Assembly (NCBI RefSeq): GCF_003722315.1
Contig: NZ_CP033580.1
Coordinates: forward strand, 2,669,127 to 2,733,126
DNA: 64,000 bases
Source: Thermoanaerobacter ethanolicus JW 200
Lineage (GTDB): Bacteria > Bacillota > Thermoanaerobacteria > Thermoanaerobacterales > Thermoanaerobacteraceae
Direction of reading: 5' to 3'
A program made the position numbers and the translations under genes. Shown here piece after piece: positions 7,299 to 46,024 of the stretch. Within the stretch, counting starts at the first letter, position 1; each line of letters opens with the position of its first letter. The notes beneath the pieces are model-generated. The model made no database searches and was not told where the DNA came from. It worked only from the letters and a program-made list of their open reading frames with translations.

Positions 7299-7430
7299 CT
7301 CTCAAGGCTCTGTGGTAAATCGTGTGTACATATTAATTATACAACAAATTTGAATAAAAAATAATTTAAACTGAATTAAATTTTAATTAAAGTGGAAAAA
7401 TTATTTTAGCAAAAAATAAGGAGGATGAAA

Positions 7431-8090: not shown

Positions 8091-8115
8091 AAGGATATGT
8101 CATTCTATGACTTCT
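8080..8115. terminator. Bidirectional terminator, BON / Usp genes
   Basis: A perfect 13-bp inverted repeat (AGAAGTCATAGAA/TTCTATGACTTCT) with a 10-base loop contains the stop codons of both convergent genes, so the last codons of each are part of the stem. Confidence 0.8.
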
Positions 8116-8513
8116 ACTCTTATGTCATTCTTTTCTACTTCTTTTTTCAATGGATTTATCACATCTCCATGAAGTATAACATCCAGAGCAGACCTTAAAG
8201 ACTTGCCTACTATTATCTCGGTTATATTGTTTTCTTTCGCAAATTCTGCCAGCGTTTTTGAGATTTTTTTACCCACCAAAATAGAAACTCTGCCACCCAT
8301 TTTTTGTGCTAAATCAAAGAGCTCCAGCAATACTTTGTTTTGCTTTAAATCATTTGAGATGTCGTTGTTTTTGTTAACGTATACAACGCAAAACTCACCA
8401 TTAGTCTCTTTTGCTCTTTCAGCGCCTCTTTCCACAAGCCTGCGGCAACTTTTCTGCGGGGTTACGCACACCATGATTCTGCTTTTCACGCCAGGCTCGT
8501 AACTTAAAACCAT
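8100..8513 (-). CDS. Universal stress protein (KdpD-type USP domain)
   Basis: The protein is a 137-residue single USP domain. The opening strand IMVCVTPQKSCRRLVERG is typical of the USP domain in KdpD-like proteins, and a C-terminal IIVGK motif gives the nucleotide-binding-type loop. It is likely cytoplasmic, binding ATP or another nucleotide under stress. It stands alone, convergent with the BON gene. The sensed signal cannot be told. Confidence 0.7.
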   Translation of the reverse strand: MVLSYEPGVKSRIMVCVTPQKSCRRLVERGAERAKETNGEFCVVYVNKNNDISNDLKQNKVLLELFDLAQKMGGRVSILVGKKISKTLAEFAKENNITEIIVGKSLRSALDVILHGDVINPLKKEVEKNDIRVEVIE

Positions 8514-8601
8514 TTTAATAAACCCCTTTCAGATGCATACTTTCCTTCCAAATATTATTATATGTTAGTTCTCTAACCTATGTCAAATTCATTAATAAAC
8601 C

Positions 8602-10794
8602 TTATATTCTTTTTAGATTTAACTGTCTCTTTTTCTTTAACTCTTTTATAAATTCTTTTAGATAACCTACCTCTTCTTTAGAAGGTGTTTTACCTCCATA
8701 AACTGTTTCATTGTATATCCGCGTAACTTCACTGAAACCTATATACCCATTTCCTAACACTCTTTTTTGATATTCCAAAGGAGTTTCTGTATCTAACTTT
8801 TTCAAGCCTTTTTTAGCTAAATACTTTACAATTTTTTCATAATAATATATCGCCAAAAACTTATTGTCCAAATTATTAATTTTTTTCTTCCGATCCCACC
8901 AATATAAAGAAGTTGTTGTCACTAAAATTACTATCAATATTAAGCCAAAACGTAAAATATTAAATTTATTATCATTGAAAAAAGCAATTTCCTGAGAAGT
9001 TGTCTCCGTATTATCACTTTGTTGCAGTTTATCGACTGTGCTATGGGAATCTCTACTCCCGTTATCTGGTTGTAATTCCATATCATTTTCTAAATTTAAG
9101 TGATTATTATTTGAGAGGGACATTGGAAATTCTAATGAGGGATAATTAGGTGTTGGTTCAAAAGTAATCCAACCGTAGTCATCAAAATATACCTCTACCC
9201 ACGCGTGAGCATTAGCAGCGGTAATCCTGTATTTGCCATCACTACTAGGTGCTGACGGCATTCTAAATCCCACTACATATCTTGCAGGAATTCCAATTGT
9301 CCTGAGCATAATCACCATTGCCGTCGCATAATAAGAACAATATCCTTTTTTTAGATCGAATAAAAAATAGTCAACAAAATCTCTATCCGAAGGAGTAGGA
9401 GGAACATCTAAAGAATAGGGGTATTGCCTTAAATATTCTTCCACTGCTTTTACCTTATCATAAAGAGTTTTTTTGTCTTTTGTGATAGAATAAGCTAAAT
9501 CTTTCACTCTTTCTGGTAGAAGAGTAGCTGGATAAGACAAATATCTTATTCTTTCTTCGCCTTTTAAAGTCTCGTTACCTTTTTGCCTCAGTGAATTTAA
9601 ATCAATTTGTGGCTTTAAATAAGTGACAACATAAGGCTCTCCAGTACCATGAGAGGTTTTTGCTCTTAAGTTCAAATTATCAACTTCATAATAAAAATCA
9701 TAGCTTAGTTTATGAGGTTGCCAAGGGGAAAAAAGAATATCTGACTTAATTTTTAGTGGAATTACTGTGATAGTTTTTACTTCAAAATTTACATTATTAC
9801 TGAAAGTTGGCGGAATTTTATCGCTGCTTTCTACATACATATACTGTTGTCTGGAATTTTCCCATCTATTAGAAAAATTATCATAAATTAAAGTACTTTT
9901 TGAGGAATAAGTATAAGTATCATAGACCATTCCCCTAAGGTAAGTACTTTCATCGGCTTCTACTTCCATTATTAAAAAATTACTCGGTTTCACATTTCCG
10001 CCTAATTCATTGGCAAAAGTAGTAAAAACCGTTTCCCCAAACCAATCATCATTAGTGCCTTCGCCATTTCTCCAATCTCTAGTAAAAGGGAAAGTATCAT
10101 AAAACCAATTATTCAATGTTTCCCACTTAACGGGTTTAAAGTTTTTAGGCATCAATTGAGCACTGATAGAGGTAATAGAAGATAGAAAGATTACAACAAT
10201 CAAAAAAACTGCAATAGGTGCTTTGGCACTGCCTTTTTTAAAATAGTTCTTTATTCCAATATCTATAAAACAAAGCGTAATATAAACTGTCATATAGAGG
10301 TAAGCAGCATCTACATAATTATACCACTGCACAACAAAAAACAATATTCCTGAAAATAAAGTTAAAAACCAACTCCTTATGATAATATTTAATAACGTAA
10401 TAATCAGTGTTACTATAACAACGGTCATTATAATCATAAAAAATCTATATTTTTCTGTTAAAAGGTCAAAGCCTGGAGGCGAAATTGTATAATTCATATA
10501 AATATCCGCCCATTTTATAAAACCATCAATATAAGATACAATACTCACTAATAAGCTGCGATATTTGATAAAAACTATGACATCTATAAGTAAAAGGCTT
10601 GTAAGCAAAAATATTATCAGTTGTGGCCTTTTGAGCAAAAAAGCAAAAAATATCACTAATACTATATCTAATAGTAAAAGATAATAGAAAGGATATAAGA
10701 ATCTAAAGCCGCTAACAGCAGATAATATAACCACAAGAGATAGGGCAATTGTCATAATGTGTTCATGCAAACTCTTTTTTAGCTCTTTTGACAT
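8602..10794 (-). CDS. Membrane transglutaminase-like protein (TgpA/DUF4129 type)
   Basis: The 730-residue protein has a membrane region of several helices (first 210 residues), an extracytoplasmic transglutaminase core with catalytic Cys in KKGYCSYYATAM, His in NAHAWVEVYF and Asp in DDYGWITFEPTP, then one more helix (LRFGLILIVILVTTTSLYWW) and a cytoplasmic DUF4129-like tail. ATG at 10794 follows GGGGGAAG; the in-frame start at 10815 lacks such a site. It overlaps the upstream DUF58 gene by 32 bases. MoxR-DUF58-transglutaminase is a conserved trio thought to act in peptide-bond processing or assembly at the envelope. The substrate is unknown. Confidence 0.85.
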   Translation of the reverse strand: MSKELKKSLHEHIMTIALSLVVILSAVSGFRFLYPFYYLLLLDIVLVIFFAFLLKRPQLIIFLLTSLLLIDVIVFIKYRSLLVSIVSYIDGFIKWADIYMNYTISPPGFDLLTEKYRFFMIIMTVVIVTLIITLLNIIIRSWFLTLFSGILFFVVQWYNYVDAAYLYMTVYITLCFIDIGIKNYFKKGSAKAPIAVFLIVVIFLSSITSISAQLMPKNFKPVKWETLNNWFYDTFPFTRDWRNGEGTNDDWFGETVFTTFANELGGNVKPSNFLIMEVEADESTYLRGMVYDTYTYSSKSTLIYDNFSNRWENSRQQYMYVESSDKIPPTFSNNVNFEVKTITVIPLKIKSDILFSPWQPHKLSYDFYYEVDNLNLRAKTSHGTGEPYVVTYLKPQIDLNSLRQKGNETLKGEERIRYLSYPATLLPERVKDLAYSITKDKKTLYDKVKAVEEYLRQYPYSLDVPPTPSDRDFVDYFLFDLKKGYCSYYATAMVIMLRTIGIPARYVVGFRMPSAPSSDGKYRITAANAHAWVEVYFDDYGWITFEPTPNYPSLEFPMSLSNNNHLNLENDMELQPDNGSRDSHSTVDKLQQSDNTETTSQEIAFFNDNKFNILRFGLILIVILVTTTSLYWWDRKKKINNLDNKFLAIYYYEKIVKYLAKKGLKKLDTETPLEYQKRVLGNGYIGFSEVTRIYNETVYGGKTPSKEEVGYLKEFIKELKKKRQLNLKRI

Positions 10795-28256: not shown

Positions 28257-29660
28257 TTAAACTTTAAATTTATTTACAGCATTTGCTAAGTCTATAACCA
28301 TTGAATTTAAGTTTTGTGCTATTGCGGCCACTTCTTCTGATGATGCTGAAAGTTCTTCTGATGAAGCGGCCACTTCTTCTGATGCAGCAGAGTTCTCTTG
28401 TGTTACGGCACTTACTGATTCTACCTTAGATAATATTTCATCTTTAGATTTTACTATTTCATCCATTCCTTTATAAGTTCTATCCATAAGTGGTGCTATG
28501 TTTTCAACAGATTCTAAAATTTTGCCAAATGCCTCAACAGTGTTTTCTACTACATTTGTTTGAGATTTTATAAAGTTATCTACTTCGTTTGATGTCTTTA
28601 TTACTTCTTCTGTATCTACTTGTATTGAAGATATGAGTTCGATTATTTCGTTGGTTGATTTTTTAGATTCTTCCGCAAGTTTTCTAACTTCTTCAGCAAC
28701 TACTGCAAATCCTCTTCCAGCTTCTCCAGCCCTGGCTGCTTCGATAGTTGCATTTAATGCTAGAAGATTTGTTTGTTCTGATATTGATGTTATTACATTG
28801 GTTATGTTGCTAATTTCCTTAATTGATTTTGTAAGATTATTAACGTTTGATATAACTATTTCAAATGCATTTCTTATTTCATTTATCGACTTAACAAGCT
28901 TGTCCATCTCTTTTTTACCATTGTTAGCCCTATTTGCTGTATTATCTGTTTCATTTTTAACGCTTTGAAGCTCTTTATAAACATTTTCTATATTTTGTGT
29001 AAAATCAGCTATTAAGTGTACAATATCTTGTAAATCATTTGCTTGTGATGTCGCGCCCTCTGCAACTTGTTGCATAGTCTCTGCAAGTTCTTGTGAAGAT
29101 GATGCTATCTCTTCTGATACAGCAGATAAATTTTCTGAATTTATAGTCAGAGTTTCTGCATTTTCTTTAACAATCTTAATTGTTTCCTTTATATTTTCTA
29201 TCACAATTTTTAATGATCTATTCATTTCAGCAAATTCGTTCTTACCTTCATTATTTATTTCCACTGTAAAGTCATAATTTGATAGTTTTTCAACAAGAAC
29301 ATTGATCTGCTTCATTGAGTTCCTTAATAATTTTGTTATAGCAAATCCTAAAATTAGTGACATTACCATCGACAAGATAGATACTCCTATAAAGATACCT
29401 CTTGATTTTGAATAAGCTAAATTTGCTTTATTTACAACTTCCATTAAATTTTTAGCATTTAGTTCAACTGATGATGCCATTTTATAATTATACAAATTAT
29501 TCATAGCTTCATTTAAAATCTTCATGTTATTTATAGCTAAAAATGAAATTATTCCAAAAGAAATGGCAACTAGTCCTATTAGAATAAAAAGTAAAGTTGT
29601 TATTTTTAGATTTTTTAGTATGTTTTTATTCCCTTTTACGTTCGCGTTGTTTCGTAACAT
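28257..29660 (-). CDS. Methyl-accepting chemotaxis protein with minimal sensor
   Basis: The 467-residue receptor has membrane helices at about 23-42 and 89-112, a HAMP segment to about 165, and a signalling domain with the tip [38 protein letters not shown]. The extracytoplasmic part is only about 45 residues, against about 150 for the usual four-helix sensor, so the ligand domain appears cut down. AAGAAAGGGG precedes the start. The receptor could still sense membrane state or act in arrays with others. The 300 bases downstream (29661-29960) hold only its leader and no other gene. Confidence 0.88.
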
Positions 29661-29960
29661 TGCCTTACCCCTTTCTTTTATCTATATTATATTGCTTAAA
29701 TTAAACTTTTCTATATTTTAAATAGGAAACAAAAACAATCCGTCACAATTATAAACAGAAAATTTCTATCTTTTGTAAACGCCAATATATTGTCGATGTT
29801 TTCTCCATCTCTAAATATTTGTTTTTAAAATATTATAGTTTTCATAATTCACTTACTCAACTTTCTCTATGTTTTAATTCAAGAAATTGAATATTCACTT
29901 GCAGTTTTACCCCATTTGCAGGGCTTTATTAAGCAGTGTTGTTTTTGCTTTTGGTTAATC

Positions 29961-31292
29961 TTAATGAGGATAATTGAACATCATTTCTATCTCATCTGGA
30001 GTTTTAGGTCTCGATATATAATAACCTTGTATTTTGTCACAGCCCCATTCCTTTAGCATACTAAGCTGTTCCTCTGTTTCTACCCCTTCCGCTACGACTT
30101 CATAGTTCATTTCCTTTGAGATATACAAAATTCCTTTGATTAATGTTTTTACTTTGTTTTCGTCAATCCTGTCAATAAGGCTTTTGTCCATCTTAATAGT
30201 GCTTATAGGAAACTCTACCATGTTTATTAAGGAAGAATATCCAACTCCAAAATCATCTAGCGAAATCTTTATTCCCCTTCTTAAAAATTCGTCTATTTTG
30301 TTTACCTTTTGCTCTTTAATGTCTAATATTTGAGTTTCAGTAAATTCTATGCCAATGAGATTTGATGGTATATTGTATTTATTAATAAGCTCATCAAATT
30401 TAAAGAAAAACTCATCGTCCCTAAGCTGAAGGGGAGAAACATTGATGTTAACCTTAAGCTCGATACCCTTATTTCGCCAATCTCTTATTTGTTTAAAAAC
30501 ATCTTCAATAATAAAAATACCAAATTCTTTGATGAGACCAGTTTCCTCAAGTACTGGGACAAATCGAGAAGGAGAGATATTGATATATTTGTTGTTTCTC
30601 CACCTTGCAAGGGCTTCAACTTCCTTTATCCTATTTTCTCTCAAATCATAAATAGGCTGAAATAAAAGGTAAAACTCGTTGTTTAACATCGCTTTCTTGA
30701 TATCTACCATCATTTCAGCTTTTTCGATTATCTTGTCCTCTATAGTTTTGTCAAAAATGACATATTTTGATTTGCCCAACTTTTTAGCTTCGAACATTGC
30801 AGCATCTGCTTTTCTTATAATATCATCCATATGTTCGCCTATTTTTGATACATAAATGCCGGCGCTCACTGTTGTTAATATATCTCTTTCCTCAACTTTG
30901 AAAATATAATTAAATTTTTCTATAACATCTTCTATAACGCTTATTGCTTCATCCAGATTACAGTGAAAAAGAACAACGAACTCATCACCACCAAACCTGA
31001 AAATCTTTCCCTTTTCTTTTACTATTTCAATCAGCATATTGCTTATTTCAACTAACACTTTATCCCCAAAATGATGTCCATAGGAATCGTTAATGTATGT
31101 AAAATTATCAAAATCAAGGAGTGCAACAACAAATTGGCAATTGCTGGAGCTATAATACTCATATAAAAAATATCTGTTTGGAAGGTGGGTCAAATAATCA
31201 TAATAATACTTCTTATCTCTAAGTTCCTTTCTCTTCAACACATAAATCATCCTTTCATATTCAATAAAAGTAGACTTTTTGCTCGCATGCAT
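29961..31292 (-). CDS. GGDEF-EAL bifunctional c-di-GMP protein
   Basis: The 443-residue protein has a GGDEF domain (about 40-170, RFGGDEFVVLF intact, so cyclase-competent) and an EAL domain (about 195-440) with EVEALARW, GIEFTET, DDFGVGYSS, MDKSL and EGVET, the residues needed for phosphodiesterase activity. No sensor domain or membrane helix precedes them. The annotated ATG has a weak ribosome site; ATG 14 codons in has GAAAGG adjacent. The N-terminus may therefore be trimmed relative to family members with input domains. Confidence 0.88.
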   Translation of the reverse strand: MHASKKSTFIEYERMIYVLKRKELRDKKYYYDYLTHLPNRYFLYEYYSSSNCQFVVALLDFDNFTYINDSYGHHFGDKVLVEISNMLIEIVKEKGKIFRFGGDEFVVLFHCNLDEAISVIEDVIEKFNYIFKVEERDILTTVSAGIYVSKIGEHMDDIIRKADAAMFEAKKLGKSKYVIFDKTIEDKIIEKAEMMVDIKKAMLNNEFYLLFQPIYDLRENRIKEVEALARWRNNKYINISPSRFVPVLEETGLIKEFGIFIIEDVFKQIRDWRNKGIELKVNINVSPLQLRDDEFFFKFDELINKYNIPSNLIGIEFTETQILDIKEQKVNKIDEFLRRGIKISLDDFGVGYSSLINMVEFPISTIKMDKSLIDRIDENKVKTLIKGILYISKEMNYEVVAEGVETEEQLSMLKEWGCDKIQGYYISRPKTPDEIEMMFNYPH

Positions 31293-32105: not shown

Positions 32106-33161
32106 TTATATATAAAACATAATTTGCTGATAAATACCTGATAATGGTACCTGAATATCTGCAAGTCCTGCCTCAAAAACTGCTTTTGGCATACCATATA
32201 CAACACAAGATTCTTCTGCTTCAACTATAACACGTCCATTATATTTTTTTACTGCCTTGCATCCTTCAAGTCCATCATTTCCCATTCCTGTTAGTATAAC
32301 TGCTAGTAAGCGATCTTTATAAATAGGAGCTGCGGAACTAAGTGTAATATCTACAGACGGTTTGTACAATATTTTGTCATCATGATAATCTTCTATTTTT
32401 AAAGTAATTTTTCCATCTATATTTTTATATAATAATGTCTGGAAACCAGCTGGAGCAATATAAATATTACCAGCTTCTAAAATTTCTCCATCTTCCGCTT
32501 CCTTAACGTGCAAATTACACATAGCGTCAAAACGTTCAGCTAACGATTTTGTAAAACCTGGTGGCATATGTTGTAAAACAATTATAGGCACACGGATATC
32601 GTTCGGGAAAAATGGAAGAATTGATTGAAGGGCAATAGGTCCTCCAGTAGAACATCCTATTATCACAAGATCCACCAGGTTATTCCTTACAGTAATTTTG
32701 TTTTCTAATGATTTAATAATATTCTCCGTTGGAATTTTTATTTCTTTAAATGGAATCTTGGCATTTTCAGCAATCGCTTTTAACTTATTTAAAAATTCAG
32801 TAGCAGTTTCCTCTTTTGCATCTTCTTTAGTTAATTCACTTTTAAGGAAAAAGTCAACAGCTCCTAATTCTAAAGCTTTAATTGTAGTTTCCGCACCTTC
32901 TTCTGTATAATTACTTAACATTACTATAGGAACTGGATTAGTTTTCATTATTTCTTTAAGCGCAGTTATTCCATCCATTTCTGGCATTTCCACATCCATA
33001 GTCACAATGTCAGGCTTTAACCTTTGTATCTTTTCTATTGCATCAACTCCATTTCTTGCTATGCCTATAACAGAAAATTGTGGATCTTTTTCAATAATAA
33101 GGCTTATATATTTTCTCATAAAAGATGAATCATCAACTACTAATACTCCATATTTTTTCAT
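32106..33161 (-). CDS. cheB: Chemotaxis methylesterase CheB
   Basis: CheB removes methyl groups from receptors when phosphorylated by CheA. The 351-residue protein has a receiver domain with Asp56 in MDVEMPEMDG and a methylesterase domain with Ser in IGCSTGGP, His in LQHMPPGF and Asp in GMGNDGLEG. It overlaps cheR by 4 bases, typical of coupled translation. It is the last gene of the che set; an IS element upstream of cheR may reduce its transcription. Confidence 0.95.
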   Translation of the reverse strand: MKKYGVLVVDDSSFMRKYISLIIEKDPQFSVIGIARNGVDAIEKIQRLKPDIVTMDVEMPEMDGITALKEIMKTNPVPIVMLSNYTEEGAETTIKALELGAVDFFLKSELTKEDAKEETATEFLNKLKAIAENAKIPFKEIKIPTENIIKSLENKITVRNNLVDLVIIGCSTGGPIALQSILPFFPNDIRVPIIVLQHMPPGFTKSLAERFDAMCNLHVKEAEDGEILEAGNIYIAPAGFQTLLYKNIDGKITLKIEDYHDDKILYKPSVDITLSSAAPIYKDRLLAVILTGMGNDGLEGCKAVKKYNGRVIVEAEESCVVYGMPKAVFEAGLADIQVPLSGIYQQIMFYI

Positions 33162-33979
33162 AAATTTTTGCCCCCCTTTTTATAATAAAAAATAGATGGA
33201 GTATATATTGCTTCAAATCCAGAATTCATGCCCGTTATCGTTTCTGCATGACCTAAAAACAAATATCCACCCATTTTTAAGATATCATAAAAAGTATTGA
33301 TTACTTTTTTAATAGTATTATTATCAAAATATATCAATACATTTTTACATATAATAATATCCACTTTTCCAATTTGGTCTGCTACGTCATTGTCCAAAAG
33401 ATTTATATATCTAAAGTCAACCATATTCCTAATAGAATCTTTAACCTTATAAGCGTCATCTAATTCAATAAAAAATTTCTCATATGCTCCTTCAGGCATT
33501 CTTCTAAAAGAAAAAGATTTTTTTTTATACACACCGCTTTTGGCTTTTTCCAAAACTTTTTTGTTAATATCAGAAGCAATGATTTGCACTTCTCCTGGCT
33601 GAAACAACCCACTCTCTTCAACCAACATTCCAATTGTGTAAGGCTCTTCACCAGTCGAACAAGCGGCACTCCATATACGCAAAGGATTTTGGGAGGTACG
33701 TCCTACATATTGGGGAAGTATAACTTTCCGAAACTCCTCCAAAAAGTTTTCTTCCCTGAAAAAGTAAGTTTCGTTAACTGTTATCAATTCAATTAAGGTA
33801 TCCCATTCATTTGGTTCCATGTTGAGATATCCGCAATATTCCCAATAGGATAGCCCAAGTTCTTTTAATCTTCTAGAAACTTTAGACTGAAGAGCCGGAA
33901 GATCTTTTTTATAATCAATACCACAGTAACTATTTATAAGTTCTGCTAATTGACTTATTCCGATTGTATCTGCAAACAT
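33158..33979 (-). CDS. cheR: Chemotaxis methyltransferase CheR
   Basis: CheR methylates glutamates of chemoreceptors using S-adenosylmethionine. The 273-residue protein has the all-alpha N-domain and the SAM site IWSAACSTGEEPYTI, then IIASDINKKVLEKA and IIICKNVLIYF. The ribosome site GGGGAGG is 8 bases from ATG. The IS6-like element beginning about 100 bases upstream separates it from the receptor and cheA, so it may rely on a new promoter. Confidence 0.95.
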   Translation of the reverse strand: MFADTIGISQLAELINSYCGIDYKKDLPALQSKVSRRLKELGLSYWEYCGYLNMEPNEWDTLIELITVNETYFFREENFLEEFRKVILPQYVGRTSQNPLRIWSAACSTGEEPYTIGMLVEESGLFQPGEVQIIASDINKKVLEKAKSGVYKKKSFSFRRMPEGAYEKFFIELDDAYKVKDSIRNMVDFRYINLLDNDVADQIGKVDIIICKNVLIYFDNNTIKKVINTFYDILKMGGYLFLGHAETITGMNSGFEAIYTPSIFYYKKGGKNL

Positions 33980-34164: not shown

Positions 34165-35529
34165 ATGTTTCGACAACTACTACCCGTTTTCTTTCTTACT
34201 CATTTATTAAATTTTTTGCTTAAAATTTCTCTATTCGCTCTCAAACACTTTAAAGTAGATATTCAGCCGCCTGTTGACCTCCAACCTTCAGGCTACAAAG
34301 TTTTGTCACCTTTAGAGGATCCTTTACCCCTTGTTGAAAAAGTTGTTGAGAAAAAAGATTACAAGAAAATCCTTGCCGAGGCTGAAGCTCAAGGTAAGCC
34401 TATCTCTCATGTTAGACGTATTAAACCCCTTTGTGTTGATGTTGATAAGTGCCCTGTTTGCGGTGCCCCTCCTGATTATTTGTACAGTTTTGGTAAAGAC
34501 CCTGACGGCTTTCAAAAACTACAGTGTAAAGTGTGTAAACATCAATGGGCTCCTGGTAAACCTGCTCCTAAAAAGTCTCGCCCTACTTACCGCTGCCCTT
34601 TCTGCAGGTCTGCCCTTATTCAGGATAAAACTAGAAAGAATTTTACTGTGTTTAAGTGTCGCAATGATAATTGCCCTAAGTGGCTTAACCACCGTAAAAG
34701 ATATCGCTTCAGAGCTTTTGATGTTGATTTTGATGAACTCTCTTCTTCTCCAAATGCTACCCCTGTTAACCTCGCAAAAAGCCATTTTAGCCCATTCTTG
34801 ATAGCACAAACTGTTAATTTATACGTAGGTCTCGGTCTTTCTTTAAGGCAAACTGTCTCTGTACTACAGCATATATGGCAAGTTCAAGTCTCTCATCAGA
34901 CTATACAAAACTGGGTGGTTTCCTTGGCCTCTAAACTCGCTCCGCTTGTTAAGTCTATCAACCTCCCTTTGTCAGGCCTTGTTGTTATTGATGAGACTTA
35001 CATAAAGGTCAAAGGTAAGTGGCATTACCTTTTTACTGCCTGTGATGGCTTGAGAGGTTTTATTATCTCACAGCACCTTTCTCCTCATAGGGATGCTTTA
35101 GCTGCTTTGACAATCCTTAAAGAGGTCATTGACCGTTATAGCAACCACGAATTCATTTTAGTCACAGATAAAGCGCCTATTTATGATGTGGCAGTCCATT
35201 TCGCTTCGGTTTTCTTTGGGGCCGATATCCGTCACCGACCTGTGTTGGGAATCTCTCCTCCACCCGGTGGTGACAGTCATACTTACAGACCGTATAAAAA
35301 CCGTTTAGAACGCTTATTTGGCTCTTACAAGGCTCATTACAAGCGCCATAAGTCTTTTAGTTCTTTTGAAGGTGCTGTCGCTCATGCATTGCTATATCAG
35401 CTGTACTACAATCACTTGAAACCTCATGAGGCTTCCGATGGCAAAGTACTTGCACCCCTTAAAGATAAACATGGCCACCAAGTGGATAATTGGGCTAAAC
35501 TGATTCAATGGTTTGTTGAGCTTAATTAA
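34165..35529 (+). CDS. DDE transposase, IS6/IS240-like with zinc ribbons
   Basis: The 454-residue protein has an N-terminal hydrophobic stretch and two zinc-ribbon-like cysteine sets (CPVCG...CKVCK and CPFC...CRNDNC), an HTH region (LSLRQTVSVLQHIWQVQVSHQTIQNW) and a DDE core: Asp in VVIDETYIKVKGKWHYLF, Asp in LVTDKAPIY and Glu in NRLERLFGSYK. The core resembles IS6/IS240-type transposases, while the long zinc-bearing N-terminus is larger than the usual IS6 protein. The frame is intact, so the element may be active. Confidence 0.8.
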   Translation: MFRQLLPVFFLTHLLNFLLKISLFALKHFKVDIQPPVDLQPSGYKVLSPLEDPLPLVEKVVEKKDYKKILAEAEAQGKPISHVRRIKPLCVDVDKCPVCGAPPDYLYSFGKDPDGFQKLQCKVCKHQWAPGKPAPKKSRPTYRCPFCRSALIQDKTRKNFTVFKCRNDNCPKWLNHRKRYRFRAFDVDFDELSSSPNATPVNLAKSHFSPFLIAQTVNLYVGLGLSLRQTVSVLQHIWQVQVSHQTIQNWVVSLASKLAPLVKSINLPLSGLVVIDETYIKVKGKWHYLFTACDGLRGFIISQHLSPHRDALAALTILKEVIDRYSNHEFILVTDKAPIYDVAVHFASVFFGADIRHRPVLGISPPPGGDSHTYRPYKNRLERLFGSYKAHYKRHKSFSSFEGAVAHALLYQLYYNHLKPHEASDGKVLAPLKDKHGHQVDNWAKLIQWFVELN

Positions 35530-36127
35530 ACTCTATAATCTTGACAACTTTTATGTGGTAAGTTAGACTGTATTTGAAATAGTCTAGCTTACCATAGGGT
35601 AATGTTTGCCTTCTTTGCCCATAAAAGCTTAGATTTTATTTACTTATAGTTTTTTCCTAGGTGTCATTTTAAGTTATTGATTTAATAATCACTAATTTCT
35701 TTGCTAACTACTACCTACAATTTCTATTTTTTAGGGAATCCTCATGTTCTTACTTGACGCTACCGTTGTATGAAAAAATTGTGTAAAGCTATCTTCCCAT
35801 CAGAATCTAATATCCTCCTAATGGGCACAGCTCAATCTACTTTTTTGTCTAATTACGAACTAATTCTTCAAGCTCTTCGTGAATTACCTTAGGATAGTCA
35901 GAAAGTTCTTTTGTCGCTACCGTCAATTTCTCTATATCTTTGGTATTCATATCCGCAGTTCTACCTATTTCAGAAATAAACTTCATCATTTGTTCAATTT
36001 TCTCAGCCTGAACTTTAGTTTCGCTCGTTATTTTTTTCGCTTGTTCCGTAACATTCATAATATTTTCAAATACAACATCAACATTTGAAGACTGCTTTTT
36101 CAATACAGTGGTAATCTGTTTAATTTG

Positions 36128-36967
36128 TTCGCGTGAATTTGCTACAGTTTTTACAATTTCTTCGACTCCTTTTGCTTGCTCCTCAGCTGCTAAAGCAATT
36201 TGTTCCGCTTGTATAGTCACATTCTCTACCGCTTGTACTATATTTTGCCCTTGGGTTGCCTGCTCTTTCACTGCTGTACTAATTTGACGTACCTGCTCCC
36301 TTGCACTCGCTACTCCTTTTATTATTTCTTCGACTCCTTGAGCTTGTTCCTTTGTTGCCTGCGTGACCTGAGCCGCTTGATTTGTTACATTCTCTACCGC
36401 TTGTACTATGTTTTGCCCTTGGGTTGCCTGCTCTTTCATCGCTGTACTAATTTGACGTACCTGCTCCCTTGCACTCGCTACTCCCTTTATTATTTCTTCG
36501 ACTCCTTGAGCTTGTTCCTTTGTTGCCTGCGTGACCTGAGCCGCTTGATTTGTTACATTCTCTACTGCTTGTACTATGTTTTGCCCTTGGGTTGCCTGCT
36601 CTTTCATCGCTGTACTAATTTGACGTACCTGCTCCCTTGCACTCGCTACTCCCTTTATTATTTCTTCGACTCCTTGAGCTTGTTCCTTTGTTGCCTGCGT
36701 GACCTGAGCCGCTTGATTTGTTACATTCTCTACTGCTTGTACTATGTTTTGCCCTTGGGTTGCCTGCTCTTTCACCGCTGTACTAATCTGACGTACTTGC
36801 TCCCTTGCACTCGCTACTCCTTTTATTATTTCTTCGACTCCTTGGGTTTGTTCCTTTGTCGCTAAAGCAACTTGTTCTGCTTGATTTGTTACATTCTCTA
36901 CTGCTTGTACTATGTTTTGCCCTTGGGTTGCCTGCTCTTTCACCGCTGTACTAATCTGACGTACCTG
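36128..36967 (-). repeat. Five 168-bp tandem repeats, C-terminal receptor arm
   Basis: Each unit codes for 56 residues, opening [20 protein letters not shown] and ending [13 protein letters not shown], eight heptads long. The four central boundaries are nearly identical in DNA; the fifth unit diverges at its end. A partial unit precedes the first copy. Confidence 0.9.
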
Positions 36968-37630
36968 CTCCCTTGCACTCGCTACTCCTTTTATTATTTC
37001 TTCAACTCCTTGAGTTTGTTCCTTTGTTGCCTGCGTGATCTGCGTTGCCTGTTCAGAAACTACCTTCATGGAATCCAGTACTTTAGCACTTCCTTTATTC
37101 TGTTCCTCTGTAGCTACAGCAATCTGCCGAATTTCCGCATTCATGTTTTCAATACCACCAATAATCTCTTCAATTACTTTACGCATCTCATCACTCAGCT
37201 TTGTTCCATACTCTACTTTTTCCGTTCCTACCTCAATTGCTTTTATGGCTTGAGCGGTTTCGCCTTGAATACCTCTTATAAGTGCAGAAATTTCTTTAGT
37301 TGCGGCAGCCGTCCTTTCAGCAAGTTTCCTTACTTCATCAGCAACAACAGCAAAGCCTTTCCCATGTTCACCTGCTCTAGCAGCTTCTATGGCAGCATTT
37401 AATGCAAGCAAATTAGTCTGTTCTGCAATGTCGTCAATAACTTCAATAATGCTTCCAATTTTTTCTTAACTTTTTCCAAGATTATTGATTACATCTCCCG
37501 CATGAGAAATGACCGATGATATTTCTTTAATTGCAGAAAGAGTATCATCTACTGCTTTTTGTCCGATTTTTGCTTCGTTTTGCAACGTATCACTTAGTTT
37601 ATTAATATTTTGAGCATTATTAGCAACTTG

Positions 37631-38470
37631 ATTTATTGAAGAAACCATGTTTTCAATAATGCCATATGTTTCTAATGCTGAGTTTTGCAGTTGTTCTGCA
37701 TTACCTGCTACTCCTTTTATAGATTTCCCCATCTCTTCAATCGAAGCCGATATTTCTTCTACAGCACTTGCTGTAATCTCTGCGTTCCCTGATACCTGAT
37801 TTATAGATGCAATCATCTCTTGTATCGCTGCTGCTGCTTCTTCAGCAGAGCCCTTTAAACTTTCTGCATTACCTGCTACCCCTTTTATGGACTTCCCCAT
37901 CTCTTCAATCGAAGCCGATATTTCTTCTACAGCACTTGCTGTAATCTCTGCGTTCCCTGATACCTGATTTATAGATGCAATCATCTCTTGTATCGCTGCT
38001 GCTGCTTCTTCAGCAGAGCCCTTTAAACTTTCTGCATTACCTGCTACCCCTTTTATAGATTTCCCCATCTCTTCAATCGAAGCCGATATTTCTTCTACAG
38101 CACTTGCTGTAATCTCTGCGTTCCCTGATACCTGATTTATAGATGCAATCATCTCTTGTATCGCTGCTGCTGCTTCTTCAGCAGAGCCCTTTAAACTTTC
38201 TGCATTACCTGCTACCCCTTTTATAGATTTCCCCATCTCTTCAATCGAAGCCGATATTTCTTCTACAGCACTTGCTGTAATCTCTGCGTTCCCTGATACC
38301 TGATTTATAGATGCAATCATCTCTTGTATCGCTGCTGCTGCTTCTTCAGCAGAGCCATTTAAACTTTCTGCATTACCTGCTACCCCTTTTATAGATTTCC
38401 CCATCTCTTCAATCGAAGCCGATATTTCTTCTACAGCACTTGCTGTAATCTCTGCGTTCCCTGATACCTG
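37631..38470 (-). repeat. Five 168-bp tandem repeats, N-terminal receptor arm
   Basis: Each unit codes for 56 residues, opening QVSGNAEITASAVEEISASI and ending AAAAIQEMIASIN. Copies 2-4 are almost identical, copy 1 differs (SLNGS for SLKGS), and copy 5 diverges in its second half. Unit size and copy number equal those of the other arm. Confidence 0.9.
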
Positions 38471-38808
38471 CTGAACACTGGTAGCTATTTCCCCTATTGA
38501 ACTATTTGAGTACTCTATGACTTTTGTTAATTGTTCCACATTTTTTGTTACACTATCAATTGAATTTGATAATTCTTCTGCCATACTATTAGTAGATTTG
38601 ATATCAGAAAATTGCTCAATTGTTATTTTTGCAATCTGTTCCGTAATATTAGATAAATATCCCATTTTTTCATCAAACGCTTTAGCAGAATTTATTGCTA
38701 TATGCACATTTTTGGAAAGTCCTGAACTCTCAATGAATTTCATAGCTATACTTTTTTTGAATCCCATAAACTATTTCCTCCTTATTTGTTTATTAAGTTT
38801 TATACATG

Positions 38809-40911
38809 TTATTTTTCTGACTGTTCAAAATCTATCTTGGAAACTCTTTTGCTGCCCACCATCTTTGCGATTCCTACCACATCTAATATACAGGCTACAC
38901 TCCCATCACCTAAAATTGTTGCTCCTGAAAAACCTTCTACTTTACCAACATATGAGCCAAGTGGTTTAACAACAATTTCCTGATTACCAACCAATTCATC
39001 TACCACAAGGCCAAATCGCTTTTCAGCAACTCCCAAGACTACTATAAAGATGTTTTTCTTTCTTTCTGGTCGCAAAATATTGAAGTAATCATGAAGCCAT
39101 ATGAGTGGCAGAACTTTTCCCCTAATTACAGCCACCGCTTGCCCTTTTACATATTCAATTTCGTCTTCAGGTTTTCGAACTATTTCAAGTACATTACTCA
39201 TAGGAATTGCATAAGTCTCTCTATTTATCTTGACCAATAACCCTGTAAGTATAGCTAAGGTAAGAGGCAGCTTGAGTATAAATTTTGTACCTTCTCCCTG
39301 TTTTGTCTCTATATCAATAATTCCATTTAACTTGTCTATACGACTTCGTACTATATCCATTCCTACTCCACGACCTGAAATATCCGTGACCGTTTGAGAA
39401 GTTGAAAAACCTGTATAGAAAATAAGATTAATAATTTCATGTTCAGACAAAGATTCAGCTTCTTGTGCTGTAAGAATTTGCTTCTTTGTAGCAGTTTCTT
39501 TCACTTTTTTTAAATCAATTCCACGGCCATCATCTTCCACTGTAATCACAACATGATTTTCTTGGTGAAAAGCACTAATGCGTAAAACACCTTTTGAAGT
39601 TTTTCCAGCCTTTACTCGCTTTTCTGGCGTTTCAATTCCATGATCAATAGCATTTCTAATAAGGTGGATTAAAGGATCAGTTATATCTTCTATAATTGAT
39701 CTATCCATTTCCGTTTCTCCACCCTCAAGAATCAATTCAACTTCCTTGTTTAAAGATTCAGACAAATCTCTCACCATGCGTGGGAAACGGTTAAACAATT
39801 GCTGAATTGGCAACATCCGAGTTTTCATGACGTCCTCTTGAAGCTCACTAATTATTCTTGAAACATGATTTGATATTTCCAAAAGTTCTTCAACCGTATT
39901 ATCTGAGGTATATCGGTTATGTAATGCATTTCCAACTTGAGCAATTCTTGTTTGCTCAATTACCAGCTCCCCTACCAAATTCATCATTTTCTCAAGCTTC
40001 TCTACGTCTACTCGAACAGTTTGACTAATTTTCCTCTCAATGCCGTTATCCTTGTTTAAGATACTGTCGTTGCGCTCTTCTTTTTTGTTTTCTGTTATAG
40101 CAAGTTGATGTTGTAACACGTCTGTATCATACGGATAGACTTTTATACTATCAACATCCATCAGCTCATTATGTGCTTTCGTTTCAATTGTCTTCGCATC
40201 TAGTTGGGTTATTACAAGATACGAAACTTTGCTTATTTCGGCATCATCTTGAATTTCTAATATATTTGGTTCAGTTCCAATTACAGTCCCTATTTCATTA
40301 AAATAGTTATATATTAAATAAACACGGGCCAATTTCATAAGGCTATCATTGGAAATTTTTACTTCACATAACCAGCAATTTAATCCTGCTTTTATTGCTT
40401 GTTCAATCTGTATTTGCTGGTTTATGTCAAGTGCAAATATTGTATTTACATTACTTTGGTCTATATTTTTAACTATAATATCCTTTTTTTCTGTGGTATT
40501 TTCGTTTTGATTATATTCACCGGAGAGTACTTTATTTAACTCACCTAAAACAGAAGATATATCTGTTTTAATGTCATTTCTGTCAGATAAGAAGTCTCTT
40601 TTTAGCAATCTCAAATTATCCAAGCATTGAAAAAGAATATTTATGACTGGTTTTGTGGCTTTAAGGCGATGGTTTCGTATTTTATCTAATACATTTTCCA
40701 TTTCATGAGTCAAAATCTTCATTTTTTCAAACCCTATTGCTGATGAAGAACCTTTGAGTGTATGGGCTACTCGGAATATTTTTTGTATTACTTCTGGTGT
40801 TTCACCATTTTGTTCTAATTCTAAAATGCCTTCTTCGAGAAGTTGTAATTGTTCTTCAACCTCATCAAGAAATGCCCCTATCATCTCTGGATTATCATAT
40901 ATTCCAGCCAT
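38809..40911 (-). CDS. cheA: Chemotaxis histidine kinase CheA
   Basis: CheA autophosphorylates in receptor arrays and passes phosphate to CheY and CheB. The 700-residue protein has the Hpt domain with His50 in RVAHTLKGSSSAIGF, a less conserved P2 region (about 160-290), dimerisation helices (MMNLVGELVIEQTRI), the ATPase boxes HLIRNAIDHGIE, DDGRGID and GRGVGMD, and a C-terminal CheW-like domain (YAIPMSNVLEIVR onward). All catalytic motifs are present. It is third of the visible che operon. Confidence 0.95.
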   Translation of the reverse strand: MAGIYDNPEMIGAFLDEVEEQLQLLEEGILELEQNGETPEVIQKIFRVAHTLKGSSSAIGFEKMKILTHEMENVLDKIRNHRLKATKPVINILFQCLDNLRLLKRDFLSDRNDIKTDISSVLGELNKVLSGEYNQNENTTEKKDIIVKNIDQSNVNTIFALDINQQIQIEQAIKAGLNCWLCEVKISNDSLMKLARVYLIYNYFNEIGTVIGTEPNILEIQDDAEISKVSYLVITQLDAKTIETKAHNELMDVDSIKVYPYDTDVLQHQLAITENKKEERNDSILNKDNGIERKISQTVRVDVEKLEKMMNLVGELVIEQTRIAQVGNALHNRYTSDNTVEELLEISNHVSRIISELQEDVMKTRMLPIQQLFNRFPRMVRDLSESLNKEVELILEGGETEMDRSIIEDITDPLIHLIRNAIDHGIETPEKRVKAGKTSKGVLRISAFHQENHVVITVEDDGRGIDLKKVKETATKKQILTAQEAESLSEHEIINLIFYTGFSTSQTVTDISGRGVGMDIVRSRIDKLNGIIDIETKQGEGTKFILKLPLTLAILTGLLVKINRETYAIPMSNVLEIVRKPEDEIEYVKGQAVAVIRGKVLPLIWLHDYFNILRPERKKNIFIVVLGVAEKRFGLVVDELVGNQEIVVKPLGSYVGKVEGFSGATILGDGSVACILDVVGIAKMVGSKRVSKIDFEQSEK

Positions 40912-40928: not shown

Positions 40929-41354
40929 CTATTCGTAAAGAACCTTGTCAATTTTTAAAATACTAACAACACCACTATCAGTAATTCCTATACCTTCAAA
41001 ATAGCTACCATCAATTCCAGCAACCATTTCAGGAGGTGGTTGAACGTCTGAAAATTTGATAACTTGGTTTACTCTATCAACTATTATGCCAACCATTTCA
41101 TCTCTGCTTTTTAATACAACTATACGAGTTGATTTAGTAGTCGAATAATTGTTAAGTCCAAATCTTTTATGTAAATTAACAACAGGGACAATTTTGCCAC
41201 GCAGATTTATGACTCCTTCTAAAAATGGTTTACTGTTATGAACTACAGTAATTTTCTGCATTTTTATGATTTCATAAATATCGCTAATTTTTAATGCATA
41301 CCTTTCGTTGTCCAATTCATATACAACATATTGAATATCTAATAGCTCGTTCAA
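40929..41354 (-). CDS. cheW: Chemotaxis coupling protein CheW
   Basis: CheW links CheA to receptors. The 141-residue protein is a single CheW domain: YVVYELDNERYALKISDIYEI, the conserved GVINLRGKIVPVVNLHKRFG and a GIIVDRV strand. AGAAGGAGG precedes the start. It lies between cheY and cheA in the same direction, 18 bases from cheA. Confidence 0.94.
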   Translation of the reverse strand: MNELLDIQYVVYELDNERYALKISDIYEIIKMQKITVVHNSKPFLEGVINLRGKIVPVVNLHKRFGLNNYSTTKSTRIVVLKSRDEMVGIIVDRVNQVIKFSDVQPPPEMVAGIDGSYFEGIGITDSGVVSILKIDKVLYE

Positions 41355-41403: not shown

Positions 41404-41757
41404 TTATAATTTACTCAAAGTTTGAATAACATAGTCTTCTTTAAATGGTTTTACAATAAAACCTTTTGCGCCAAACATAACAGCCTCCTTAACATATAAT
41501 TCCTGTCCTAGAGCTGAAATCATAACAACTTTTGCATTAGGGTCAAAAGCCCTTATTTCTTTTAATGCTTGCACCCCATCCATTTCAGGCATTGTAATGT
41601 CCATTGTTACTATATCAGGTTTCAATTCTTTATATTTTTCAATTGCAACAACACCGTTTTCAGCTTCTCCGACCACTTCAAATCCATTTTTTTTAAGTAA
41701 AGTTTTTAGTATCATTCTCATAAAAGTTGCATCATCAACAATAAGTACTTTTTTCAT
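41404..41757 (-). CDS. cheY: Response regulator CheY
   Basis: The 117-residue stand-alone receiver has Asp8/Asp9 in LIVDDA, phospho-acceptor Asp53 in MDITMPEMDG, a Ser/Thr switch in MISALG and Lys in FIVKPF. It is the first gene of the che cluster and so CheY rather than an orphan regulator. Its 400-base leader contains a c-di-GMP-I-like riboswitch, linking chemotaxis expression to the c-di-GMP enzymes nearby. Confidence 0.9.
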   Translation of the reverse strand: MKKVLIVDDATFMRMILKTLLKKNGFEVVGEAENGVVAIEKYKELKPDIVTMDITMPEMDGVQALKEIRAFDPNAKVVMISALGQELYVKEAVMFGAKGFIVKPFKEDYVIQTLSKL

Positions 41758-42500: not shown

Positions 42501-43016
42501 TTATGCTGACTTTTTAATTAAATCCTCAAATTGTTGCGGAGTCATATACCCTATACTACTATGTAGTCTCTTTCTATTATACCAAGATTCAATATACTCA
42601 AATATGGCAAGTCTGGCAGTATCAAAATCATGGTAAGTAGCTAAATTTACTTCTTCTTTTTTTTAAAGAAGCATGAAAAGATTCTATACATGCATTATCA
42701 TAAGGGCATCCTTTGTGACTAAATGAGTGTTTTATGTTGCCTTTGGATAATATATATTCTTGAAATTTGGTGCTTGTATACTGTGAACCTAAATCACTAT
42801 GGAGTATAAGCTCCTCCTGTGGCTTTTGAGCATTATAGGCATTTTCTACAGCACGAATAGCAAGCTCTGTATCCATCGTTTTAGAAAACGCATAGCCAAT
42901 GACTTTCTTGGTATAAAGATCTATTACTGTCGCAAGGTAACACCATTTGTCCTTAACAGTATAAATATATGTTATATCAGTAACCCACTTTTGATTAATT
43001 GTAGTGGTAGAAAAAT
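42501..43016 (-). pseudogene. IS3 OrfB, C-terminal part with frameshift
   Basis: The integrase core is present: DFSTTTINQKWVTDITYIYT with the first Asp, HSDLGSQYTS with the second, and ACIESFHASLKKE with the Glu. At a run of eight A (near 42660) the frame shifts, giving a false end KKRRSKFSYLP. With one A fewer the sequence continues EVNLATYHDFDTARLAIFEY and IGYMTPQQFEDLIKKSA to TAA 42501. The gene is doubly broken, by this indel and by the transposon insertion. Confidence 0.8.
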
Positions 43017-43162
43017 CCCTGTTGTCATTTTTCAAATTAATTTAGCCCAAAACCGATAAAATTTTTCAGATTAAATAATCTTGTGATAAAATTAATGCTA
43101 AAGGAATTTAAAAAAATTTTTTCAGATTCCTTTAGCATTAATTTTAATTGGAGAGGTTACTT

Positions 43163-43744
43163 ATGCAAATAATTTTCCATGTTGATAACATTGAAGGATA
43201 TTTACATAAAGGTAAAGATTACAATTTTCCTGCCCCACCAGATAGATGTCCTTATCCCGATTGCAAGTGTAAAGTAAAACTAAAAAAGCACGGGTTTTAT
43301 TACCGTTACTATTTAGACGGATCCAATTGTATAAAAATAGCTATAAGAAGATACATATGCCCTGTGTGTAAAAGGACTCTTTCCTACCTTCCTGATTTCT
43401 GTATTCCTCATTTTCAGTATTCTTTCAATATGATTGTAAAGTCTTTAAAAGAGACACTTACAAGAGAAAAAACTCTCAGTTCTTTCATAAGTGGGTTAAA
43501 AAGAAACTTCCCTACCATACTATTTTCAAGACAGCATATATATTTTTACACCAAAAGGATAATGAATAATTTAAGTTTTATCATATACGGATTAAGGCAA
43601 ATAAACCCTTACATAAAGTTATCTGAGACTGACTCACAAAGAGAGAGGGCCAGAGAGATTTTGGACATAATAAGCATTGTACCACTCTTCTCCCAACGGT
43701 TTTATGCTCATTGCCAAAAATCATTTCTGGCCTCTCTCACATAA
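43163..43744 (+). CDS. DUF6431-like zinc-site protein of the transposon
   Basis: The 193-residue protein has CPYPDCKCKVKLKKHGFYYRYY and then RYICPVCKRTLSYLPDFCIPHFQ, cysteine pairs suitable for one zinc ribbon followed by a helical region (SLKETLTREKTLSSFISGL). This matches the small DUF6431 proteins seen beside transposases. ATG at 43163 has GAGAGG six bases upstream; an earlier in-frame start overlaps that site. Its position as first gene suggests a DNA-binding accessory factor, perhaps for end recognition or target choice. Function unproven. Confidence 0.65.
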   Translation: MQIIFHVDNIEGYLHKGKDYNFPAPPDRCPYPDCKCKVKLKKHGFYYRYYLDGSNCIKIAIRRYICPVCKRTLSYLPDFCIPHFQYSFNMIVKSLKETLTREKTLSSFISGLKRNFPTILFSRQHIYFYTKRIMNNLSFIIYGLRQINPYIKLSETDSQRERAREILDIISIVPLFSQRFYAHCQKSFLASLT

Positions 43745-43880
43745 TTTTAGCATTAAACCCGAAAGATTTAAATAAAAATTTTGATTTTTTCTTAGCAACA
43801 TAACTTTTTCCTTTAATGTCCCCCAGGTATGAGCTAAAATTACGATTAAGAAATCAAAAAAGTGAAGGGGGAACATATAA

Positions 43881-45206
43881 ATGCTTGATGAAAAAGCGAG
43901 AGAAGCTATAGCATTAAAGAGATTTTCACTGATAAGTCCGGTGCTAAACGGACAGGTAAAAAATCAGAAAGAATATTTTGATGCTCTTTCCGATAAACCT
44001 ATTGAGATACCTTATCTTGGAATGAGAAGATATACTCCCAAGACACTTAGAGGGTGGCTATATCAGTATTTAAGAGGCGGTATAGAAGCGTTAAAGCCGG
44101 GTTATCGAAGCGACAGAGGCAAATACAGAAAGATAGACTTTGAACTTTCAGAGAAAATAAAGCAAAAGAAGCTTGAACATCCTGAAATGCCAAACAAACT
44201 TCTTTATGAGACATTGATAGGAGAAGGAATAATATCACCGGATAAAGTATCCCTTTCGACATTCTATAGGTTTTTGAAAAACATTCCTGTAAAATCTTTA
44301 GATAAAGAAAAAGAGGGTAAAACAAAGAGGTTTTCCCATGAATACATCAATGAACTGTGGCAAACTGATGTCATGTATGGGTCATATATTAAAGAAGGTA
44401 AAACAAAAAGGCAAACGTACCTTATTGCATATATAGATGATGCTTCCAGGCTGTGTACCTATGCTCGCTTTTACTATACCCAGAATTTTTTAGCTTTAAG
44501 AGACTCATTTAAAGAAGCAGTGCTAAGAAGGGGAATACCCAAAATGCTCTACACTGACAATGGAAAGATATATAGAAGCACTCAATTGGAGTATATCTGT
44601 GCTTCACTAGGTACATCTCTTATTCATGCTGAGCCCTTTTCACCTCATTCAAAAGGGAAAGTAGAAAGATTCTTTCATACGGTGAGAATGAGATTTTTAA
44701 GCACAATAGATCCTACATCCATAAAGAGTATAGATGAGCTTAATATGATGTTTTTTAAATGGTTGGAGGAGGATTACAACCGAAAAGAACACAGCAGTAT
44801 TGGCATGAGTCCTTTAGATTTTTTCATGTCTCAAATATCAAGGGTAAATATGTGTGGTGACATAGATATGTTGAATGAATGTTTTCTCATAAGAGTAAAT
44901 CGTAAAGTAAACAAAGATGCTACACTTAAAGTGGAAAATATACTTTATGAAACAGAAGAAAAGTTTAAAGGTATGCGCTTAGAAGTCAGATATGATCCGC
45001 AGTGGCTTAAGGATAATACACCCCTTTTACTTTTTCATGAAGGCAAAAAAGTAGGGGAAGCGTATAAGGTAAATTTTCATGATAATGCTAAAATTCCTGT
45101 AGAATATATCGAAGACAGAAAGGTTGTAAGCGAAAATGAAGATACTGTGGATTTTGCGGCAAAACCTAATTCCCCAGTAATATCCTTTAATGATATCATT
45201 GATTAA
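43881..45206 (+). CDS. Transposase with DDE integrase core (Mu/Tn552-like)
   Basis: The 441-residue protein has an N-terminal HTH region (YTPKTLRGWLYQYLRGGIEA), then the rve core with Asp in LWQTDVMYGSY, Asp in MLYTDNGKIY and Glu in HSKGKVERFFHTVR, and a beta-barrel-like C-domain. GGGGG lies before the ATG. It is followed after 17 bases by the ATPase gene. This pairing matches the Tn7 TnsB/TnsC, Tn552 and Mu A/B type of transposition. No inactivating change is seen. Confidence 0.85.
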   Translation: MLDEKAREAIALKRFSLISPVLNGQVKNQKEYFDALSDKPIEIPYLGMRRYTPKTLRGWLYQYLRGGIEALKPGYRSDRGKYRKIDFELSEKIKQKKLEHPEMPNKLLYETLIGEGIISPDKVSLSTFYRFLKNIPVKSLDKEKEGKTKRFSHEYINELWQTDVMYGSYIKEGKTKRQTYLIAYIDDASRLCTYARFYYTQNFLALRDSFKEAVLRRGIPKMLYTDNGKIYRSTQLEYICASLGTSLIHAEPFSPHSKGKVERFFHTVRMRFLSTIDPTSIKSIDELNMMFFKWLEEDYNRKEHSSIGMSPLDFFMSQISRVNMCGDIDMLNECFLIRVNRKVNKDATLKVENILYETEEKFKGMRLEVRYDPQWLKDNTPLLLFHEGKKVGEAYKVNFHDNAKIPVEYIEDRKVVSENEDTVDFAAKPNSPVISFNDIID

Positions 45207-45223
45207 AAAAAGAGGTGTTTACA

Positions 45224-46024
45224 ATGTTTACCCAATATTTTGGAATGAAATTTAATCCATTTTCTAAAGAGATAAGTGTAAACGACCTTTACATAAGTGA
45301 AGACATTGCTGAATTAAATGCCAGGCTAAAATATTTACAAGAAACAAGGGGTATAGGACTTGTCGTTGGGGAGGCCGGTTCAGGCAAATCTACCGCATTA
45401 AGAAGATATGCTGAAAGCCTCAATCGTTCTACATTTAAACCATGTTACTTTGCCCTTTCTACACTCACAGTGAGAGAATTCTATCAAGCATTGGCTATGA
45501 TTTTAGGCGAAACACCCTCATACAAAAAAGTAACGCTCTTTCACCAGATACAAAGAGCGATAACAGAACTTTATTACAGCCAGAAGATAACTCCTGTCAT
45601 AATATTAGATGAAATACAACTGGTTTCTAATGATGTTCTTGAAGATTTGAGAATAATATTTAACTTTAATATGGATTCTCAAAACCCGTATATATTGATA
45701 CTTTCAGGACAACCACACATAAGAAACAAACTAGCCTTGAATGTAAACAGTGCACTAAGGCAAAGAATTTCTATAAAGTATGTAATGCAAGGGCTAAAAA
45801 AAGAAGAAATTCAAGATTATATAAAAACAAGAATGAAAATAGCCGGAATGGTGGATGATATATTTACACCATCAGCATATGAGGCAATATATTCTCTAAC
45901 AAAAGGGCTCCCAAGGATAATAAATAACCTGGTAACAGCTTCTTTACTCTATGCGTATTCTAAAAGGCTAAGAGAAATAGATGAAGAAGTAATATACCAG
46001 GCACAAAATGAAATCAGTTTATGA
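45224..46024 (+). CDS. Transposition AAA ATPase (ExeA/TnsC/MuB-like)
   Basis: The 266-residue protein has FGMKFNPFSKEI at its start, as in ExeA-type ATPases, Walker A GEAGSGKST, Walker B VIILDEIQLV, a sensor segment ILILSGQPHIRNKL and a C-terminal GLPRIINNLVTASLLYA. Such ATPases pick targets and activate the transposase, and may give target immunity. ATG at 45224 follows AGAGGTG at six bases; the GTG three codons earlier overlaps that site. Confidence 0.85.
   Translation: MFTQYFGMKFNPFSKEISVNDLYISEDIAELNARLKYLQETRGIGLVVGEAGSGKSTALRRYAESLNRSTFKPCYFALSTLTVREFYQALAMILGETPSYKKVTLFHQIQRAITELYYSQKITPVIILDEIQLVSNDVLEDLRIIFNFNMDSQNPYILILSGQPHIRNKLALNVNSALRQRISIKYVMQGLKKEEIQDYIKTRMKIAGMVDDIFTPSAYEAIYSLTKGLPRIINNLVTASLLYAYSKRLREIDEEVIYQAQNEISL

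Follow-up and report, generated by a model that had tools for sequence, protein, structure and literature searches.

How long can the stalk of a chemoreceptor become, and do its two antiparallel arms have to lengthen in step? These questions are raised by a locus in a 64,000-nucleotide stretch of the Thermoanaerobacter ethanolicus JW 200 genome (the window), in which a minus-strand frame of 973 codons (38767-35849) carries a chemoreceptor with a tandem repeat array in each arm. The initial annotation read this frame as one full-length receptor, and that reading did not hold. The frame opens at an ATG (38767) preceded by a ribosome-binding site, AAGGAGG (38777-38783), and is interrupted by an in-frame TAA (37466..37468, minus strand) located 33 codons ahead of the hairpin-tip glutamate (37367-37369). 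Because of this codon no full-length receptor is encoded by the sequence as it stands over 35849-38767: the N-terminal half (37466..38767) runs for 433 codons from the ATG to the TAA, and the C-terminal half (35849..37465) for a further 538 codons past it. A whole-genome search likewise found one TAA within the receptor frame. The stop arose by substitution rather than through a homopolymer indel; close intact relatives have serine at this position and lack the TAA.

It is very improbable that the stop is real but tolerated, with the two halves made separately and reassociating as a split receptor. The break does separate the N arm from the tip, and two coiled-coil arms might in principle pair without a covalent link, yet the C half has no in-frame ATG near the tip (the first lies only well into the C arm), its first start candidate is a TTG at 37411 within conserved tip sequence for which no ribosome-binding site is evident, and no relative is split at the same place.

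The repeats were located in two ways. Tandem Repeats Finder returned a C-arm array at 36205-37042 (168 bp period, 5.0 copies, 94% match, score 1459) and an N-arm array at 37694-38470 (168 bp period, 4.6 copies, 99% match, score 1526), and with the protein frame this confirmed two arrays of 840 bp, one per predicted arm and different in sequence. Read along the minus strand, the receptor comprises a unique N-terminal segment (residues 1-102; 38462..38767), which includes an 18-19 residue overhang common to most of the family described below; the N-arm array (37622..38461), with ten 28-residue half-units forming five 56-residue units; the hairpin-tip region (37260..37465), the part of Pfam's MCPsignal domain that binds CheA/CheW; the C-arm array (36191..37030), with ten clean 28-residue half-units again forming five 56-residue units; and a unique C-terminal segment (35849..36106) of 85 residues and a stop. 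The true repeat sub-unit is 28 residues, or four heptads. Over their 168 bp the N-arm units share 98-99% identity, and the last, tip-proximal half-unit of that array (N4) is degenerate. Two degenerate half-units, C4 and C15, flank the C array (36107..37114 when they are included) and bring it to six units by homology to the four-unit array of intact relatives. Five units in each arm, as first proposed, therefore describes the clean cores only; counted by homology to intact relatives, the whole N arm has 8 modules and the whole C arm 9.

The proposed arm lengths of 466 and 505 residues, counted from the tip glutamate, were reproduced, and correspond to 66-72 heptads each. A check of the heptad register gave one unbroken phase, with a period of 3.50, in every segment of both arms, and this phase is the same in the two arms when counted from the tip. 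The repeat arrays and the unbroken heptad phase are far beyond chance. PF00015 (MCPsignal) scored 180.5 bits for the C half and 165 bits across the stop. Apart from MCPsignal, Pfam gave low-complexity coiled-coil matches only, with no recognisable sensor domain (PAS, GAF etc.); no NCBIfam model scored above its cut-off, and no transmembrane segment was found, the highest 19-residue Kyte-Doolittle mean being 0.91. The description of a sensorless cytoplasmic MCP with a stalk about twice as long as the longest published class (32 paired heptads; PMC6628036) was thus borne out. The stalk is exceptionally long against the published classes, though not within its own family, which reaches 13 modules in each arm (13/13).

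That family was assembled from three sources. Five genomes of the sister genus carry the receptor, complete in two and broken at contig ends inside the arrays in three. Scanning 84,980 species with an N-arm repeat alignment brought in about 30 more, in Paenibacillus, Saccharibacillus, Brevibacillus, Alicyclobacillus, Bacillaceae, Clostridium, Heliorestis and Caldicoprobacter; 398 sampled genomes from the phylum contributed another two, both in single-contig genomes. None of the members has a transmembrane segment, their 525-1476 residues include 0-2 prolines, and the relatives' arms span 35-107 heptads. The longest member seen, from Clostridium magnum (L041, 5347-9774), has 1476 residues, 13/13 modules and more than 100 heptads per arm, and is devoid of proline and cysteine. 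In the thermophile clade (window, L038, L039) modules are near-identical within a species but not between species, and those of Paenibacillus and Clostridium are long diverged; to judge from these sequences, recent turnover of the arrays seems to be confined to the thermophiles. A membrane-anchoring N-terminal amphipathic helix was considered and dropped, as the helical moments of the first residues were not consistently high across the family. The literature searched contained no described family of repeat-built, length-quantised, arm-matched chemoreceptors.

The order cheW-cheA-(second cheW)-mcp-cheR-cheB is kept in most members, the window included, where it is interrupted by an insertion sequence (IS). 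Several Paenibacillus operons (L040, L043, L046, L053, L060, L062) have a second, diverged CheW-like gene, placed between cheA and mcp; in Saccharibacillus the second CheW-like gene is located after cheB. The frame in Bacillus sp. AFS073361 (L042, about 5550 to 9318) has 11/11 modules with an in-frame TAA in the N-arm repeats, and neither cheW nor cheA was detected upstream of it within 5.5 kb; it is a second decayed copy in the family.

Both arms could be read in 32 members, counting the window copy, and their lengths follow a simple rule. The C arm measures 56k residues within 4, and the N arm usually 56k plus about 19 (8-14 in Bacillaceae and a few others, and 27 in one). Although the half-unit has 28 residues, the lengths of the arms tend to fall on steps of 56 rather than 28. 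Module counts in the N and C arms are equal in 28 of the 32 (7/7, 8/8, 9/9, 10/10, 11/11, 12/12 and 13/13), and the other four are off by exactly one (window 8/9, L040 10/11, L055 6/5, L071 4/5). When the C counts were shuffled in 100,000 trials, equality was reached in a mean of 4.7 and a maximum of 14 members, versus the 28 observed. On a tree built without the repeats the module counts change 14-15 times, independent contrasts of N versus C counts gave r = 0.97 with a slope of 0.94, and several sister pairs differ by an equal change in both arms (12/12 v 11/11, 8/8 v 7/7, 12/12 v 10/10, 11/11 v 9/9 and 9/9 v 8/8). Only N arms were used to find the members, so that the search did not select for the C arm; since the modules are well diverged in many members, their counts are independent of the assembly of near-identical repeats. 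The positions of module gain in close pairs often agree within about one module (for example 149/178, 156/150 and 287/322), but where to place gaps within repeats is ambiguous, and a gain at the same distance from the tip was not used as evidence.

Matched expansion of both arms is well supported for the family, with the window copy as the exception. The equal counts agree with the initial annotation's premise that insertions are balanced across the hairpin, and the contrasts with its expectation that N and C copy numbers change together among relatives. It is scarcely credible that the arrays are a neutral satellite expansion with equal numbers by coincidence: in the thermophile clade the units of any one species are nearly identical, which points to recent turnover, yet the 28 equal members, the correlated contrasts and the steps of 56 speak against this, and counts are matched also where the units have long diverged (L041, L046, L059). 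The count test refutes neutral expansion for the family, and only the window copy could still drift.

A further reading of the arrays comes from the MCP methylation consensus, which is matched 9-14 times in N arms (window, G011, L041) compared with 2.1-6.2 times in heptad-preserving shuffles; in the window receptor there are 9 matches in the N arm (shuffle mean 2.4) and none in the C arm. As cheR and cheB are both in the operon, the repeats might mainly multiply methylation sites, with length matching as a by-product. We consider this rather improbable, given that the C-arm repeats hold 0-4 strict matches and yet C arms expand equally, that motif counts in near-identical repeats are not independent, and that a 7/7 member (L052) has only 3 N-arm matches.

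Against the family rule, then, the window gene itself is unbalanced, contrary to what had been proposed for it. Compared with the intact 7/7 copies of the sister genus (G009 and G011, both balanced), it has one additional module in the N arm and two in the C arm. An alternative start codon was rejected as the cause of the mismatch: upstream of ATG 38767 stand AAGGAGG and, immediately ahead of the ATG, an in-frame TAG, and the N-terminal sequence lines up with that of the family. Unequal copy numbers, which the initial annotation had taken as the observation that would count against balance, occur in the window copy and in at least one relative (L040, 5953-9540), an apparently intact gene with 10 N and 11 C modules. 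As the modules of L040 are of diverged sequence, its mismatch cannot be an assembly collapse of identical units. Balance is accordingly strong but not absolute, and a one-module mismatch can persist. The off-by-one copies, the window copy among them, look like intermediates or casualties of changes in module number.

The genes around the receptor lie in the order cheY, cheW, cheA, mcp, (transposase), cheR, cheB. On the minus strand are a CheY-like receiver (41404..41757), CheW (40929..41354), CheA with Hpt, P2, dimerisation, ATPase and CheW-like domains (38809..40911), the CheR methyltransferase (33158..33979) and the CheB methylesterase (32106..33161), all of the receptor's operon; between mcp and cheR, on the plus strand, is an IS6/IS240-like DDE transposase (34165..35529). 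No terminal inverted repeats of this element were found at 16 of 20 matches. In the two sister-genus genomes with complete chromosomes cheR directly follows mcp, with no insertion. An integrase-core fragment and an IS21-like pair (rve transposase and AAA ATPase) occur just upstream of the che operon (42628-46024) and, together with the IS6-like element, bracket it with mobile DNA. Slightly past cheB (28257-31292) are a second MCP, of 467 residues, and a GGDEF-EAL protein; a GGDEF gene also stands beside the operon in L035-L037, L039, L046, L052, L055, L058 and L067, hinting at a link of the receptor operon to cyclic di-GMP.

The genome contains a second CheA, which is shared with the genus mates, two of which have only that one. 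Since this second CheA is common to the genus mates, and the receptor is absent from all eight of those examined, the che system of the window is accessory, with a patchy distribution. With a stop ahead of the tip, one arm longer by a module and an IS between mcp and cheR, the system is most probably nonfunctional here. The window locus very likely belongs, as a broken copy, to a family of sensorless hairpin chemoreceptors of Firmicutes that have no membrane segment, and it is probably a decayed accessory system adjoining transposases.

Decay is the preferred reading of the window copy, and sequencing or assembly error is its main rival. By the latter the stop, the one-module mismatch or both would result from a base error and a miscount of repeats, the receptor of the living strain being intact and balanced. 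The near-identity of the N-arm units over 168 bp means that short reads could miscount them; the other mismatched copies of the thermophile clade (L055, L071) come from draft or metagenome assemblies with near-identical units; and several relatives break at contig ends inside arrays. The genome is, on the other hand, a single contig of 2.91 Mb and the stop is a substitution, and both the IS between mcp and cheR and the in-frame stop in L042 fit real decay. We regard error as unlikely, though by no means negligible, and retain decay as the explanation of the window copy.

By its sequence, an intact receptor of this family is almost nothing but an antiparallel coiled-coil hairpin with an ordinary MCP tip, each arm consisting of head-to-tail 56-residue (8-heptad) modules in one continuous heptad phase. 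AlphaFold predicted a single hairpin turn at the tip for a 7/7 relative, with moderate confidence (pLDDT 69, pTM 0.44), and 2ch7, the Thermotoga MCP rod, was the best-superposed solved structure for the tip half of this model (TM 0.83 on target, rmsd 3.4). The model of the window read-through was poor (pLDDT 56, pTM 0.36), with about 53 C-arm residues unstructured at a pLDDT of about 30 or less, and was set aside as evidence; this unstructured segment might be the extra module. With models of moderate or poor quality, the in-register pairing of the arms rests on sequence.

Following established MCP biology, two such chains would form the usual four-helix rod, the tip would bind the CheA and CheW of its own operon, and CheR and CheB would add methyl groups to, and remove them from, the Glu/Gln motifs repeated along the N arm. 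The module count would set the length of the rod. At 10.5 Å per paired heptad (PMC6628036) the predicted rods measure about 58 nm (7/7), 70 nm (window, if intact) and 109 nm (13/13). Recombination between tandem units would presumably add or remove modules in a single arm at a time, with balance restored by selection for distal N- and C-terminal segments that lie side by side. Equal arms would not be demanded by free ends alone; the rule of matched counts suggests that the distal segments must lie together, where they may serve as an input or contact module. We tentatively entertain the further possibility, doubtful as it stands, that these chemoreceptors are adjustable molecular rulers of about 40-110 nm with an 8-heptad step equal to half a super-helical turn. 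With every module added, the arms would again be paired and the kinase-binding tip would come back into rotational phase with a functional distal end; for the step to be a half turn of a two-fold symmetric four-helix rod, the super-helical repeat would have to be close to 112 residues, as against about 99 in SMC arms.

In the usual view, the signal of a chemoreceptor travels along a coiled coil whose length is fixed by its class. The natural series seen here, which runs from 5 to 13 modules per arm while ends and partners stay otherwise similar, amounts to an experiment on rod length. It bears on the way in which signal, adaptation and array spacing vary with that length, and also on how two separate repeat arrays within one gene stay equal.

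A comparable known receptor is FrzCD of Myxococcus, a sensorless cytoplasmic receptor with no periplasmic or PAS-type sensor, and the single receptor in its own che operon; the window receptor likewise has no sensor domain and lies in its own che operon. FrzCD has a stalk of ordinary length and is not known to carry such repeat arrays. With the MCP signalling domain in general (PF00015; 2ch7/3ja6 of Thermotoga, 1qu7 of Tsr) the family shares the tip sequence, the antiparallel heptad hairpin, the methylation-type motifs and the CheA/CheW/CheR/CheB partners. The described MCP classes have 12-32 paired heptads (PMC6628036), whereas the arms of the giant-stalk receptors comprise about 35-107 heptads of repeated 56-residue modules, and those of the window lie outside every described heptad class. 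As "a few rare" receptors that appear longer than the described classes are already in print (PMC6628036), great length as such had been noticed before. Like the receptors of the cytoplasmic arrays of Rhodobacter sphaeroides and Vibrio cholerae, in which the baseplates are 30-35 nm apart (PMC3964821), those of the family are without membrane segments, and two CheA/CheW baseplates could sandwich opposed rods. Unlike in those arrays, no ligand-binding domain was found and the rods are predicted at 58-110 nm, so that, if sandwiched arrays form, the spacing of their baseplates should be far wider, at several times 30-35 nm. The nearest functional parallel is provided by SMC proteins, in which two antiparallel arms must also match, and whose "tuned" permitted lengths follow a super-helical period of 91 residues by genetics and about 99 by structure (PMC5344682). 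The two are not homologous, the arms of SMC are not tandem repeats, and the step in the chemoreceptors is 56 residues.
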